Shown: piece after piece, positions 36,404 through 53,008 of the stretch
Position numbering within the stretch: the first letter of the stretch is position 1
Layout of the letters: the number at the start of each line of letters is the position of its first letter
Origin: Maledivibacter sp.
GTDB lineage: Bacteria; Bacillota; Clostridia; Peptostreptococcales; Caminicellaceae
Length of the DNA stretch: 64,000 nt
NCBI GenBank assembly: GCA_025210375.1
Contig: JAOASB010000005.1
Span: 1-64,000, forward strand
Direction: 5' to 3'
The notes under the pieces: generated by a model
What the model was told of the DNA's origin: nothing
The model's input: only the letters and a program-made list of their open reading frames with translations
Database searches by the model: none
Translations under genes and position numbers: made by a program

Positions 36404-36614
36404 AACGCATTCTATGACTATAAAAATATTAGGATATGTTTACCCGGGATTAATAGCTAAGGCTGTATGTTGATATTATTTTGTGGAAACTAATCCTGTA
36501 TTAAAGTGTTCTTGTTTTACTGTTTGTAATAAAAGGAATCCATAGAACAATATAGAAGTATTTATTAATGGGAAAGATTTTACTTAAAAGCGTTGGACGG
36601 GAGGAAGCTAGAAA

Positions 36615-39125
36615 ATGTATGGTTTAAAGAAGAGAAAAAAAATAAAGCTATTTAATTTCTTAGTTCCTATTCTAGTTTTAGTATTAATAACAACATACTT
36701 TATCGTTGCATATGGGAGATCATTTGATGAAACTATTTTTAGTGTTGATAATATCCATGATCACATAAGAGAATTATCATCGTCTAAGTATAATGGCAGA
36801 TTAGTTGGGAGCCGCGGGAATGAATTAACTCTTCAATATGTAGAAAATCACTTTAAAAACCTGGGAATTGAGCCGGGCGGTCAGAATGGTACTTATTATC
36901 AAGATTTTGATACCATGATAACTCAAATTGACTCAAATCCGCACTTTACCATTGAAAATGTGGATGGAGAAATTCTTGAAGAATTTAAACTGTTTAAGGA
37001 TTATAAATTCTTCACCTATTGGTATGGTGGAGGGGGAAGATTCAAAGGAGACATTTTATTTGTTGATAAGCATTTGTATGATGTTCCAAAGCAATTGCTT
37101 AAGGATAAAATAGTTGTTATGGGAACCTTTGATATTAGGATAAAGGATGTAGAATATGTACTTGAAAATGGGAGTAGGGGTATATTATTTAGAAGGACAT
37201 CTCCCTATGACAAACTGGATAGAGAGCTTCAGCTTCAGAAAAAGGTTGAAAACACCATAAAAACAGGGAAAAGTATATTTTTTGGATATCTAGGCGGCGA
37301 TGCATATTACAAGATAAAGCATCATTCCAGTCATGAAGCGATAGATAAACAAGTCCTAAAGGATATTGAAATAAAGAGAAAAATACCCCGGAGTGTAGGC
37401 TTGTTAAAGGGGGTAGACCTAAAGTGTGATATTGATTACCCAGTTGTTAAATCCGTAAATATTTTTGGAAAGATTGAAGGAAAAAGAAGGGATGAATATT
37501 TAATAATAGGTGCTAATATTGATCATGTAGGGAGTGGAATAGATGGTCAGTATTTCCCTGGTGCATTGAATAATGCTTCGGGAACAGGAATGATGCTCGA
37601 ACTGGCAAGGATCATAAAATCTCAAAGGAATTTACCGGAAAAAACGATTATCTTTGCTGGATGGAATGCAAGGGAAAATGTTGCCGCCGGGTCCCAATAT
37701 TATGTGGAAAATCCTTTGTATTCCTTGGGAAAAACTCAAGTTATCAATTTAGGGTGTATTGGCAATAAAAACGAAGAAAAAATTATTTTTGAAAGTGAAG
37801 AGAAGGTTGGAAAGATATTAAGAAATAAGTTTTTTCAGTATTCAGAGGATCTAAAGGATACAGAAAAACTAGAAATACAAGGGATTGAAGCAAAGGTAGG
37901 GAGCTGGAGCGACCATATGCCCTTTATAGAGGCAAAGGTTCCTGCAATTAATGTGACAGACGGTTATTCAAATATGAATACATATAAGGATACTATAGAC
38001 AATGTTAGTAAAGAGAAATTAGAGAAAATTGGAATAGTCTTAACAAGCTATATCAAGAGAGAGGTCTTTAAAGACACTCTTCCAGACTTCTTTAATGGTA
38101 TTGAGTTAGCATTAATAATTGTATTTTTATTGGGAGCTGTATTAATTTATATAATCCTATCATTTAATAAAGGAAATTTAGGTATCAGTATATTCAGTGC
38201 AACTATAGAAGATATATATTATTCATCGGGATTTAATGCTTTGTTGAAATTCTATTATTTTGTAACCCCAGCCTTCATAATATTATTTTCTTTAATTTTT
38301 ATAGCAAACTTGCCTCCGAGCTTTAACCTAGAATTTCATAATGGTCAGGTATACACTAATCTATCAATGTATTTAAGCTTGAAAAAAAGTGTTTTATATA
38401 TTAGAAATTTGATTTTTAATGGACTAGGTACAACAGAAAATCATGTTGAAATAATTAAAATCATGTATGCATCTGTAGGTAGAAGTATGAAGCTAATACT
38501 CACAACAATTGCTATTTCCTTAGTATTGGGAGTACTAAAGGGGATGTTTGATAGCTATAGAGGTGGAAGAAAAGGAGCTTTAAGAACGTTAGGAACCTTG
38601 ATAACCTTCTCACTGCCAGACGTCTTAATAGTTCTATGTGGGATGCTGTTGATTACTTTCATTTCCAAGAGTGATACCATGAGGCAGTTATTTGATTTAA
38701 AGGTTCTTAGGGGATTTATTATACCACTACTAACTTTATCTATAATTCCAATGGTCTATATATCTAGAATCACATTTATTGTTGTACAAGAGGAAGTACA
38801 AAAAGGATATGTGGTGGCAGCTAGAAGTAAGGGCTTAACGAAATTTCAAGTATTTACTAAACACATATTGATTTCCGTAATACTCAAGGTTATTGACTCC
38901 ATCCCAACATTGATTACAATAATAATTTCAAACTTAATTGTAGTGGAGTATCTATTGAATTATAAAGGGATTCTTTTTAATCTTTATAGATTCTATGAGG
39001 GTCATGATGTAACTAGCTTTATAGGTTTCTCCCTGGCCCTGGGGTTAATATACATACTATTTATTACTGTATCTAAGGCAGTTTCAAAATTAATTAATCC
39101 TATGAAGAGGGAGGGTGCCCAATGA
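36615..39125 (+). CDS. M28-like pseudopeptidase fused to DppB-type ABC permease
   Basis: This is an 836-residue fusion. A membrane span (about 14-34) leads to an extracellular M28 aminopeptidase-like domain with an inserted PA-like region (about 35-490). Two more spans (about 497-520 and 555-582) follow, then a DppB/OppB permease (about 610-836) whose EAA loop reads GYVVAARSKGLTKFQVFTKH (731 on). The M28 zinc ligands are mostly lost. The expected His is N301 (GANIDH), Asp is N319 (GALNNASG), catalytic Glu is R353 (NAREN), and Asp is G380. E354 and H434 (SDHMPF) remain. It probably binds rather than cuts peptides. The start follows a GGGAGGAAG site. It overlaps the partner gene by four bases. 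Confidence 0.87.
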   Translation: MYGLKKRKKIKLFNFLVPILVLVLITTYFIVAYGRSFDETIFSVDNIHDHIRELSSSKYNGRLVGSRGNELTLQYVENHFKNLGIEPGGQNGTYYQDFDTMITQIDSNPHFTIENVDGEILEEFKLFKDYKFFTYWYGGGGRFKGDILFVDKHLYDVPKQLLKDKIVVMGTFDIRIKDVEYVLENGSRGILFRRTSPYDKLDRELQLQKKVENTIKTGKSIFFGYLGGDAYYKIKHHSSHEAIDKQVLKDIEIKRKIPRSVGLLKGVDLKCDIDYPVVKSVNIFGKIEGKRRDEYLIIGANIDHVGSGIDGQYFPGALNNASGTGMMLELARIIKSQRNLPEKTIIFAGWNARENVAAGSQYYVENPLYSLGKTQVINLGCIGNKNEEKIIFESEEKVGKILRNKFFQYSEDLKDTEKLEIQGIEAKVGSWSDHMPFIEAKVPAINVTDGYSNMNTYKDTIDNVSKEKLEKIGIVLTSYIKREVFKDTLPDFFNGIELALIIVFLLGAVLIYIILSFNKGNLGISIFSATIEDIYYSSGFNALLKFYYFVTPAFIILFSLIFIANLPPSFNLEFHNGQVYTNLSMYLSLKKSVLYIRNLIFNGLGTTENHVEIIKIMYASVGRSMKLILTTIAISLVLGVLKGMFDSYRGGRKGALRTLGTLITFSLPDVLIVLCGMLLITFISKSDTMRQLFDLKVLRGFIIPLLTLSIIPMVYISRITFIVVQEEVQKGYVVAARSKGLTKFQVFTKHILISVILKVIDSIPTLITIIISNLIVVEYLLNYKGILFNLYRFYEGHDVTSFIGFSLALGLIYILFITVSKAVSKLINPMKREGAQ

Positions 39126-41419
39126 AGAAGTTTAATTTACCATTAATTTTAGGAGGAATAATAATATTCCTTGTTATTGTGGTGATGGTGTTTCCTAGTT
39201 TTTTCACCAAGGTCAATCCCTATGGTATACAGCAGATTAAAACATGGACTGAAGAAGTGGGTAAGTTTAAACTTCAGGCCGCACCCTTTCCACCTTCTAG
39301 GGATGCCATACTTGGCACCGATGAATTAGGCAGAGATACATTAAGCCTCATTATTTACGGGACAAAGCTAACTATTTCATTAGGCTTACTTGTTGTTATA
39401 GGCAGATTCTTAATTGCTTTGCCTATAGGTATGACAGCTGGCTTTGGTAGTTTAATATCAAAGGCAGTAATTAATCAATTTAATGTTATTTTCAGTGCCA
39501 TACCGGCTCTCTTAATAAGCTTAATAGTACTAAAACTAGATTTTTTTGTGAATCTAGATAAGCACCAGTCTATTGTTGCCTTTGTTATTGTCCTTTCCTT
39601 TGTAGGCTGGGCTAAGTTAGGATTGATTATTATGGAAAGGGTTCAGGAGATTTTGGCTAAACCCTTTATCAAAGATGAGATAGCCATAGGGAAGAGTAGA
39701 TTTAAAATAGCAATAGAAAATGTTATTCCCCATCTAGCTGCTGAAATAGTTGTGATTTTCTTTATGGAAATAGCAAGGGCTCTTACTCTAATCATGCAGC
39801 TTGGAATATTTGGTGTTTTTGTTGGAAATCTTAGGATTATTGAGGATACAGAGGGTGGAAAAATATTAGCGAAAAACATCAGCTTTGAACCCGAATGGGC
39901 AAGTATGCTTGGTACAGCTAGAAACCAAATAAGAAGCGCACCGTGGAATGTTTTTTCACCTGCATGTGCATTTTTTATAAGTGTATTAGGATTTAATCTA
40001 TTTGGTGAAGGCTTGAGGGGGTATTTACAAAAAAAAGATTCAAAATTCATTCCTACTTTAAGAAGAATATTATCCTTTGATTTTAAAGTGCTTAAATCCC
40101 CATTCCAAAGTGATGGAGGAAAAAGGAGTATAAACTATAAAGTCATAACAGTTTTTCTGGTAATTTTAATTGCAGCTACAGGCATATTTTATGCTAAGGC
40201 TAATAAATATGAATTCTGTCTTAATAACTCCACATATAACTTTACTTCAAGCCTCGAAAATCAAGTGGTAATTGGATCCGATGAGGCTGAAAAAGTAGCC
40301 TTGGATATTGCTATGAAGATGAAAGAAATAGGACTAGAGCCTTTGTATGATGAAGGATTTATAAAGGAATACAAGACTGTGGATATTTATGTTCCCACAT
40401 GGGAGAGTTTTGAGATGAAAGTGGGTAATGAAAAAAGAAAATTAATATTAGGCAAGGATTATTCACTTATTGGATTTGGTGATATTGATAGGGCAGGGAA
40501 GATTTATGACGCAACTAGGGATGACATGTTTAACATAAAGGATTATAATAGGTTTTCAGATAAATTTGTACTTATCAATACAAGATTTTACACCGAGGAT
40601 GCAGTAAAATATTTTGCTAACAATATACTTGAAAAATCCAGTGCTAAGGGAGTCCTGTGTATTGCCAAGGAAAAACAAGAACTGCCAACGTCCTTGGGAC
40701 ATGATATTTATGGTGGGATAGTAGCTGTAATAACAAAGGATATGGGGAAGGTTCTGATCGATAATAAGGATGTAAACTTAAATATTTCTGTCAAAAGTAA
40801 TAAGTTGAATTCCGTAGGAAGAAATGTCCTAGGAATACTCCGTGGAGAAGATCAAAGGGTAGGGGAGGAAGCTATTATAGTAGGTTTAGGCTATAATTAT
40901 ACTGATAAAGAACTTGGAGAAAAAAGGCTTCAGTTTGATTTAGAACTTATGAAAAGACTTTCCCAGGACAATATAAATAGAAATAGGTCGATTATATTTG
41001 CTTTTTGGGATGGGACAATTAAGGATGAGTACGATGGTATTAGGGATTATGTAGAAAATCCCATATATCCTGTTAAAAAAAGTACTGTCTATATAGATTT
41101 AAGTAAATTAAACTCTTATAAATATGATTACTTGAATTATAGTACAGCCCAAGCACCTTTAACTAGATATTTTGGCTGGAGTCTAGGCCATCAGCTTGAG
41201 AAAAACTGTGAAGAAAAGGAAATTGAAATCAAAGAGTATGGGGTAAAGAATTATTACCAGACTAAATTACAAGGTAGCCTTGTAGATAATCTCATGTTCC
41301 TAGAAAGGGGGATCGCAACAATCATTATTAGAACTACAGATGAAGATAATGAAGGTAGGTTTGATTTAGAGGATATTGGAAGGATATTAATTAGGACTAT
41401 AAATGAAAACAATTATTGA
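39122..41419 (+). CDS. DppC-type ABC permease fused to M28-like pseudopeptidase
   Basis: This is a 765-residue fusion in mirror order. The DppC/OppC permease comes first (span about 7-25, LGTDELGRDTLS near 64, EAA loop from about 186, last permease span before 310). After a span near 341-361 the rest is extracellular and M28-like, with a PA-like insert and a peptidase core from about 580. The core strands align as VGLGYNYTD (588, no His) and FAFWDGTIKDEYDG (626, no Glu pair). No SDH motif is evident at the end. All zinc ligands seem lost. With the previous gene it would form a heterodimeric channel topped by two extracellular domains. No SBP or ATPase gene is near. Confidence 0.85.
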   Translation: MKKFNLPLILGGIIIFLVIVVMVFPSFFTKVNPYGIQQIKTWTEEVGKFKLQAAPFPPSRDAILGTDELGRDTLSLIIYGTKLTISLGLLVVIGRFLIALPIGMTAGFGSLISKAVINQFNVIFSAIPALLISLIVLKLDFFVNLDKHQSIVAFVIVLSFVGWAKLGLIIMERVQEILAKPFIKDEIAIGKSRFKIAIENVIPHLAAEIVVIFFMEIARALTLIMQLGIFGVFVGNLRIIEDTEGGKILAKNISFEPEWASMLGTARNQIRSAPWNVFSPACAFFISVLGFNLFGEGLRGYLQKKDSKFIPTLRRILSFDFKVLKSPFQSDGGKRSINYKVITVFLVILIAATGIFYAKANKYEFCLNNSTYNFTSSLENQVVIGSDEAEKVALDIAMKMKEIGLEPLYDEGFIKEYKTVDIYVPTWESFEMKVGNEKRKLILGKDYSLIGFGDIDRAGKIYDATRDDMFNIKDYNRFSDKFVLINTRFYTEDAVKYFANNILEKSSAKGVLCIAKEKQELPTSLGHDIYGGIVAVITKDMGKVLIDNKDVNLNISVKSNKLNSVGRNVLGILRGEDQRVGEEAIIVGLGYNYTDKELGEKRLQFDLELMKRLSQDNINRNRSIIFAFWDGTIKDEYDGIRDYVENPIYPVKKSTVYIDLSKLNSYKYDYLNYSTAQAPLTRYFGWSLGHQLEKNCEEKEIEIKEYGVKNYYQTKLQGSLVDNLMFLERGIATIIIRTTDEDNEGRFDLEDIGRILIRTINENNY

Positions 41420-51646: not shown

Positions 51647-51972
51647 ATGAAGGCCTTAGGGTCTGTAGGTATATCCATACACAGTATAATATGGCAATTG
51701 AGCAAATTGCATAATTACTTTCTGTAAAAACCATCTACTACATGTAGTTTTAAAATCCTTAAAGCTATACCATATATATTATGCAATTGTGCCAAGTAAG
51801 AGTTATGCAATTTCCTCAATTAATAAATACAATATTCCTAATTGGATTTATTTATGCTATTTATTATTTGATATTCAAGCTGCCTAAGAAGGGGAAGGAA
51901 CGTGATAGGAGGATTGATGAGCTAGAAAGAAAAATCAATGATATGAATGATAAATTAGATAAAATGGTTTGA
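51647..51972 (+). pseudogene. Small membrane protein gene split by a MITE
   Basis: After GAAGGAGGGG, ATG 51647 opens MKALGSVGISIHSIIWQ, then runs into a MITE (51700-51817) and stops at 51727. Downstream of the MITE the frame LINTIFLIGFIYAIYYLIF continues to a charged coiled coil ending at 51972. Removing the MITE and one AATT target copy joins the halves in frame as a ~68-residue one-span protein. A shortened product could still start at ATG 51805 inside the MITE, but that start has a poor ribosome site. Confidence 0.8.
51700..51817. mobile_element. MITE copy 2 (118 bp)
   Basis: The left end GAGCAAATTGCATAATTAC and right end AAGAGTTATGCAATTTCCTC are inverted repeats. It is flanked by AATT on both sides (51696-51699 and 51818-51821). 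Compared with copy 3 it lacks about 40 internal bases. Confidence 0.9.
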
Positions 51973-52009
51973 ATTATATTATTTTTAACATAAAGGGGAT
52001 GATTATAAT

Positions 52010-52528
52010 ATGACTAAAGAAATACTTGAATGGATAAAAACCATTGGACTATCCGTAGTTATTGCTTTGTTTATCACAACATTTATTGCGAGACCTACTT
52101 TGGTACAGCAGTCCTCCATGTATCCTACATTGAACTCAAATGATTATCTGATGCTCAATAAGATTTCCTATAGGTTTCATAAGCCTGAAAGAGGGGATAT
52201 AGTGGTGTTTGAGAGTTGTTTGAAATCAAAGAAGGGTAAGGCTAAGAATTTAATTAAAAGGGTGATCGGGGAAGAGGGAGATAAAGTAGTTATTAGGGAT
52301 GGCAAAGTTTATGTTAATGATGAAGAGCTTAAAGAGAATTATATCAATGGAGGCGTTACTCCCGGTGATGTTGATGTAGTGGTTCCAAAGGATAATGTTT
52401 TTGTAATGGGAGATAATAGGCAGGGAAGCCTTGATAGTAGAAGGCTAGGAACAATTGATATTGATAATATAGAAGGAAAGGCTTTGGTAAGGCTTTTTCC
52501 CTTTAATAGAATTGGAAGAGTTAACTAG
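52010..52528 (+). CDS. lepB: Signal peptidase I
   Basis: This is a 172-residue membrane serine protease. One N-terminal span (about 12-30) is followed by the catalytic Ser in QQSSMYPTL (about 37) and the catalytic Lys in LIKRVIGEEGD (about 84). MGDNRQGSLDSR completes the signature. It cuts signal peptides of exported proteins on the outer face of the membrane. AAAGGGGA precedes the ATG. MITE copy 3 begins one base after its TAG stop, which forms part of the target duplication. Confidence 0.94.
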   Translation: MTKEILEWIKTIGLSVVIALFITTFIARPTLVQQSSMYPTLNSNDYLMLNKISYRFHKPERGDIVVFESCLKSKKGKAKNLIKRVIGEEGDKVVIRDGKVYVNDEELKENYINGGVTPGDVDVVVPKDNVFVMGDNRQGSLDSRRLGTIDIDNIEGKALVRLFPFNRIGRVN

Positions 52529-52529
52529 T

Positions 52530-52688
52530 GAGCAAATTGCATAATTACTTTCTGTAAAAACCATCTACTACATGTAGTTTTAAAATCCTTAAAGCTATAC
52601 CATCAAATATGCTTATATCTTAAGCAATTAAATCAAGGATGATATTCGCATATGCAATTGTGCCAAGTAAGAGTTATGCAATTTCCTC
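52530..52688. mobile_element. MITE copy 3 (159 bp, intact)
   Basis: The ends are as in the other copies. TAGT flanks it on both sides (52526-52529 and 52689-52692). The interior matches copy 1 (1-156) and has no coding capacity. Confidence 0.92.
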
Positions 52689-52692
52689 TAGT

Positions 52693-53008
52693 ATTTAAAA
52701 TATAGGGATTACAATCGAAACTTTCTAGAATCAATTAAATATGCATTTGAATATATTATTATAAATGAAATATTGTAGATTGAATGTTATTAGGGCTTAG
52801 CTTTTGGCAGATGAAAAAATAAACAAGTTAGATTGTGAAGTGATTTTGATTTTTTTTAAGTAGTTCATTTTGGGCATACTCACCATATGTAAGGGATGAA
52901 GTAACGACGAAAGGAATTAGGGGAGCGAGTAGGATGACTAGTTTATTTTTAAATGTGCCTTAGGGAGGTTCTATTTATATTAATATATAATTTAGAAGGA
53001 GTAATGTA
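52693..53008. other. Intergenic region before map
   Basis: No gene is supported. AGAAGGAG near 52995 serves the next gene. A purine-rich stretch near 52895-52935 has no recognised role. Confidence 0.45.

Follow-up and report, generated by a model that had tools for sequence, protein, structure and literature searches.

Gene pair and domain organization

The window, the whole stretch of 64,000 nucleotides from Maledivibacter sp. that was analysed, contains no N bases and carries two plus-strand open reading frames, P0001 and P0002, which overlap by four bases (ATGA) and are each preceded by a good ribosome-binding site (Table 1). Both proteins combine a permease subunit of the Dpp/Opp type with a domain of the peptidase M28 fold, in mirror order: in P0001 the M28 domain precedes a DppB permease, and in P0002 it follows a DppC permease. 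The reality of this architecture is essentially certain. A scan of the locus for promoters and terminators gave hits at chance level only.

Table 1. Features of the two fusion genes (positions in the window)
Feature	Residues	Position	Strand	Basis
P0001, M28 pseudopeptidase-DppB permease fusion	836 aa	36615-39125	+	RBS GGGAGG at 36599-36604
P0001, N-terminal membrane anchor	15-33	36657-36713	+	hydropathy; AF2 helix 2-34
P0001, M28 domain, predicted extracellular, with an insert as in BSAP	35-490	36717-38084	+	Pfam, fold
P0001, second membrane helix, returning the chain to the cytoplasm	498-516	38106-38162	+	hydropathy
P0001, outer loop between DppB TM1 and TM2, without scoop signature	568-626	38316-38492	+	motif comparison
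P0001, DppB-type permease core, EAA loop EEVQKGYVVAARSKGL	590-834	38382-39116	+	Pfam, NCBIfam, phmmer
P0002, DppC permease-M28 pseudopeptidase fusion	765 aa	39122-41419	+	RBS GGGAGGG at 39108-39114
P0002, DppC-type permease, motif LGTDELGRDTLS	2-304	39125-40033	+	NCBIfam; VIA Z 27.4 to 8z1x_B
P0002, extra membrane helix	340-358	40139-40195	+	hydropathy; K/R-rich cytoplasmic linker 296-339 before the helix
P0002, M28-fold domain, predicted extracellular, with zero catalytic residues	361-765	40202-41416	+	fold, alignment

The initial annotation had read the pair as two M28-permease fusions in mirror order, and both domain searches and fold comparison bear this out. In P0001, Pfam identified Peptidase_M28 at residues 282-477 (E = 4e-28) and BPD_transp_1 at residues 636-830 (E = 9.5e-17). 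In P0002, BPD_transp_1 at residues 100-304 passes the cut-off (E = 1.9e-6), and the M28 match is sub-threshold (E = 0.061), so that M28 similarity is clear from the domain search for the first protein and is decided by the fold for the second. The BPD_transp_1 domain with its EAA loop scores 61.8 and 28.2 bits, respectively, at a cut-off of 26.4. The NCBIfam models matched are Opp2B/Opp3B for P0001 and Opp2C/Opp4C/NikC/DppC for P0002, all under their equivalog cut-offs, and phmmer aligned the permease of P0001 with M. tuberculosis DppB (3.4e-7).

Single-chain AlphaFold2 models of both proteins were built from alignments of 33 and 37 sequences, with a mean pLDDT of 84.3 and 82.6. Residues 37-488 of the P0001 model superimpose on the Bacillus aminopeptidase BSAP/YwaD (Z 32.4 over 376 residues), as do residues 361-765 of the P0002 model (Z 24.8, rmsd 4.8, 358 residues); residues 2-304 of the latter match E. 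coli DppC (8z1x_B; Z 27.4, rmsd 2.2, 265 residues). Both fused domains have the M28 fold and neither has the periplasmic-binding-protein fold. Because the M28 domain occupies the list of the VIA fold comparison of P0001, DppB is absent among the matches listed, and the permease identity of this protein rests on Pfam, NCBIfam and phmmer. As to whether the M28 domains of DppB and of DppC could be copies from a single recent duplication, a tree with other M28 proteins places them apart, a separation that its long branches and weak forks make tentative.

The M28 domain of P0001 is flanked by a helix on each side, the N-terminal anchor being preceded by the positively charged MYGLKKRKKIK, and that of P0002 stands after one added helix. 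Hydropathy and the positive-inside rule predict an extracellular location for both, in agreement with the site first proposed for them.

Occurrence and operon structure

A motif from the DppC part, in the form of an alignment of P0002 residues 226-312, was used to scan one genome per species and revealed 37 true loci; an unrelated match in Bacteroides (L171) was left out. A scan of contigs by P0001 alone gave zero matches. The loci come nearly all from Clostridia and include Maledivibacter halophilus, Geosporobacter ferrireducens (a complete chromosome), G. subterraneus, Anaerosolibacter carboniphilus, three Fusibacter, Acidaminobacter, three Clostridium and one metagenome-assembled genome labelled Spirochaetales. 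The search for the same two-gene order in other genomes, suggested at the outset, was thus rewarded, and the recurrence of the mirror order in 37 named loci rules out a chance fusion or an artefact of joined contigs.

The operon order M28-DppB / DppC-M28 / DppD / DppF is kept in all 37 loci, except for ends lost at contig edges. Both fusion genes are whole in 31 of them, the others being broken by contig ends or frame breaks, and the DppD/DppF ATPases adjoin the pair in 36, the remaining locus (L145) ending after DppD at the contig end. An oligopeptide-binding protein gene (SBP_bac_5) is absent beside the pair, as the initial annotation implied, and is likewise found in none of the 37 operons, nor with the operon in the order-wide genome set. 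Among the clusters compared, no other gene is conserved around the operon.

Proteins similar to P0001 were detected in 28 of 394 genomes of the order (E ≤ 1e-30), part of these matches being M28-only proteins. An outer group combines DppC-M28 with a stand-alone DppB (L032, L034, L040-L042 and L102), and further DppC-M28 proteins occur in other families of the class. Two variants concern the ATPases. At L158:10563-12407 (the same as L106:10895-12739) DppD and DppF are fused into one protein of 614 residues, and in genome G015 (L030:743-2487) DppF and DppD have degenerate ATP-binding motifs (GESGSGKE, without LSGGQ); judged from these motifs, the G015 transporter seems to have lost ATPase cycling or to be decaying.

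An apparently split operon in the genome of the window

No ATPase gene adjoins the permease pair in the window. Paired DppD/DppF genes, with the oligo_HPY C-terminal domain typical of Dpp/Opp systems, lie on another contig of the same genome (G000:C29:117848-119606). They are the best matches to the ATPases of the relative Maledivibacter (75% and 78%), have intact frames and keep Walker A and LSGGQ. Their neighbours on both sides are those that flank the intact operon in Maledivibacter, and the permease pair is missing there; its place is taken by a gap of about 0.9 kb (L132:11107-11997) in which a chemoreceptor-like fragment lies together with a dispersed repeat. In Maledivibacter, the counterpart of the gene that precedes the pair in the window is found on a different contig. 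From the shared flanks, the missing pair and the location of this counterpart it seems that the permease pair moved out of the ancestral operon, although in this draft of 55 contigs a misassembly could give the same picture. The reading made from the window alone was right on identities, order and placement; it missed the degenerate catalytic sites, the ATPases on the other contig and the conserved family, one lineage of which keeps an intact peptidase site.

The dispersed repeat in the gap, about 180 bp long, also occurs at positions 1-159 and 51696-52703 of the window. A gene for an HTH_3 and TPR protein of RRNPP-like layout is divergent from the orphan ATPases (L132:11997-13358), and another is divergent from the whole operon in Maledivibacter (L029:6794-8155); a peptide-responsive regulator is a possible identity for it.

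Catalytic site and selection

The catalytic positions were read from an alignment to members matching YwaD/BSAP. P0001 has N301, N319, R353, E354, G380 and H434 where intact relatives have H, D, E, E, D and H; four of the six are replaced, and the five zinc ligands and general-base Glu of family M28 are not complete. The relative Maledivibacter reads N-N-K-E-D-H against N-N-R-E-G-H in the window. A complete H-D-E-E-D-H set is present in only four of the 37 rows (L140, L141, L142 and L146), two from Geosporobacter and two from Anaerosolibacter, all Thermotaleaceae. To judge by these residues, this is the only lineage found whose fused peptidase may be active. The DppC-fused domain lacks the catalytic residues in every member aligned. 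Members with an intact site are nested within the permease tree, and regain of a five-ligand zinc site is unlikely; the DppB-fused domain was therefore probably active in the ancestor, with activity lost repeatedly afterwards.

Between the window and the relative Maledivibacter, pN/pS is 0.25 and 0.26 for the M28 domains of P0001 and P0002; the permeases have values of 0.29 and 0.15 and the ATPases of 0.22 and 0.18, with synonymous sites near saturation. These ratios indicate that both M28 domains are under purifying selection, though catalytically dead in the window. The cleft residues of the M28 domains vary from one family member to another, as one would expect of diversified binding but also of a purely structural role.

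Loss of the DppB scoop signature

In E. coli, a scoop loop of DppB fills the cleft of DppA, and DppBCDF without DppA has no ATPase activity (PMC12136057). The scoop signature, as defined in the same work, was sought in the forms GDP, GLDxP and GD(L/F)GxS. At least one form is present in 11 of 12 canonical DppBs from the genome of the window and related genomes. The signature is absent from P0001 and from all five stand-alone DppB partners of DppC-M28; throughout the fused DppBs (n=37) a shorter loop replaces the scoop, two of them showing a single, chance-like match to the loosest pattern. That the M28 lobes would have taken over the receptor role from the binding protein is supported mainly, and indirectly, by the lost scoop signature and by the missing binding-protein gene, observed for the window transporter as for the family.

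Proposed mechanism and alternatives

The arrangement may be pictured as follows. DppB and DppC would form a channel heterodimer, with one M28 lobe on the N-terminus of DppB, between two helices, and the other on the C-terminus of DppC, after the added helix; because of this placement between or after membrane helices, both lobes would face the outside above the pore. Transport would be powered by the cognate DppD/DppF, supplied in trans from the other contig in the genome of the window. In place of DppA, the M28 lobes would hold the free N-terminus of a peptide in the old aminopeptidase cleft and hand the peptide over to the channel. The lobe on DppB would, in addition, have removed residues ahead of import in the ancestor, as it would to this day in Geosporobacter and Anaerosolibacter; in most other lineages, that of the window among them, catalysis would be gone, leaving capture or gating. 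The heterodimer, the direction of import, the peptide substrate and capture by the M28 cleft are what we infer here.

With some reserve, we hold it probable that the family is a Dpp-type importer that needs no separate binding protein, its fused M28 ectodomains capturing, and ancestrally also trimming, peptides. A fuller reading is offered more tentatively, its chances being slightly less than even: the family would constitute a new class of ABC importer, with two channel-fused peptidase-fold ectodomains in place of the binding protein, that of DppB being ancestrally a working aminopeptidase and the other always inactive, so that trimming and capture would be directly coupled to translocation.

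A free OppA/DppA-type binding protein encoded elsewhere might still serve the transporter, with the M28 lobes as accessories, for trimming where active and for docking or gating where inactive. The genome of the window has about 25 SBP_bac_5 genes, and at about 18 kb from the orphan ATPases there is an orphan OppA-like gene (L133:9736-11418, on C29), to which a gene about 31 kb away from the intact operon of Maledivibacter is 86% identical; this proximity is what gives an unlinked partner its standing, and the DppBCDF of Pseudomonas aeruginosa does work with five binding proteins, DppA1-A5 (PMC4206461). In Geosporobacter (G120), however, about 200 kb separate the operon from the best counterpart of this gene, and both the lack of an SBP gene in all 37 operons and the family-wide loss of the DppA-engaging signature speak against such a partner. 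We regard this arrangement as unlikely.

Still less probable is that the Dpp scaffold serves for export, with M28 lobes that would process a peptide or another solute, or receive it, once exported. The Dpp-like SapBCDF has been reported as a putrescine exporter (PMC12772348), the absence of a binding-protein gene is compatible with export, and weak matches to SapB/SapC models were obtained. These NCBIfam matches are, however, no better than those to Opp/Nik/Dpp importers, no peptide-precursor or biosynthesis gene is conserved near the clusters, and the loss of catalysis in most members speaks against processing as the core task.

Quite improbable is a role as peptide sensor, in which the transporter would supply peptides to a regulator, for instance the divergent HTH-TPR protein, or report on them. 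The gene of this protein adjoins the operon in Maledivibacter and the orphan ATPases in the genome of the window, and the degenerate Walker A and signature motifs of the G015 ATPases would suit such a role; the gene has this position in these two genomes only, however, and the ATPase motifs are intact in most members. Least credible of all is that relocation has left the pair of the window functionless and in decay, as the split operon, the chemoreceptor fragment left beside the ATPases and the loss of one zinc ligand more (D to G) than in Maledivibacter might suggest, since both frames are intact and pN/pS of 0.25-0.28 between the two genomes is similar to that of the ATPases, with a contribution from selection before the relocation.

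Relation to known systems

The importer proposed here resembles DppABCDF/OppABCDF of E. coli and M. tuberculosis in its DppB, DppC, DppD and DppF subunits and their gene order, in the EAA loops, the LGTDELGRD motif, the oligo_HPY ATPases and the DppC half (Z 27 to 8z1x_B). It differs in an operon without a DppA gene, in an M28 ectodomain on both permeases and in the vanished DppB scoop signature.

A receptor domain tied to the permease is found in OpuA, where the fused binding domain is C-terminal, and in GlnPQ, where it is N-terminal. Such substrate-binding domains are covalently attached to the permease outside the channel (PMC11065425, PMC8025302); they have classical binding-protein folds, whereas the domains described here have M28 folds and sit on two subunits in opposite orders. 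Their fold is that of the M28 aminopeptidases BSAP/YwaD, Aneurinibacillus AP and S. griseus AP, whose catalytic set is kept in the Geosporobacter and Anaerosolibacter DppB fusions; unlike these enzymes, the window domains are membrane-fused and have lost catalytic residues.

Use of the M28-superfamily fold for recognition of a ligand or substrate has a precedent in TfR1 and nicastrin, the latter with a role in substrate binding (PMC2647162). TfR1 is among the top fold matches, and the Nicastrin model matches two family members; both proteins differ in being eukaryotic, single-pass and outside any transporter. Genetic coupling of an importer to a peptidase-type enzyme is known from the five-gene glutathione import locus of S. 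aureus, which encodes an ABC transporter and a gamma-glutamyl transpeptidase (PMC10355420), the enzyme there being separate and unfused. In the open-access literature no description of an M28-permease fusion was found; the parts are known and their combination appears to be undescribed.

Type I ABC importers are regarded as relying near-universally on a binding protein with the periplasmic-binding-protein fold. If the proposal holds, a conserved family in which a peptidase fold replaces this component would represent another way for a substrate to switch an importer on. The gradation among its members, some with a complete zinc site and others with wholly inactive domains, would offer a natural series for the change from enzyme to receptor, comparable to the transferrin receptor and nicastrin, and a testable function would be given to reading frames now filed under generic permease or M28 names.

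Stand-alone M28 proteins

M28 proteins of about 705-723 residues with a hydrophobic C-terminal part also occur unfused, at L035:8621-10735, L036:10426-12597, L037:10362-12485 and L038:14221-16341. Three of them are near dpp-type operons and the catalytic residues of L035_7 are degenerate; these proteins possibly represent a separate pseudopeptidase partner.
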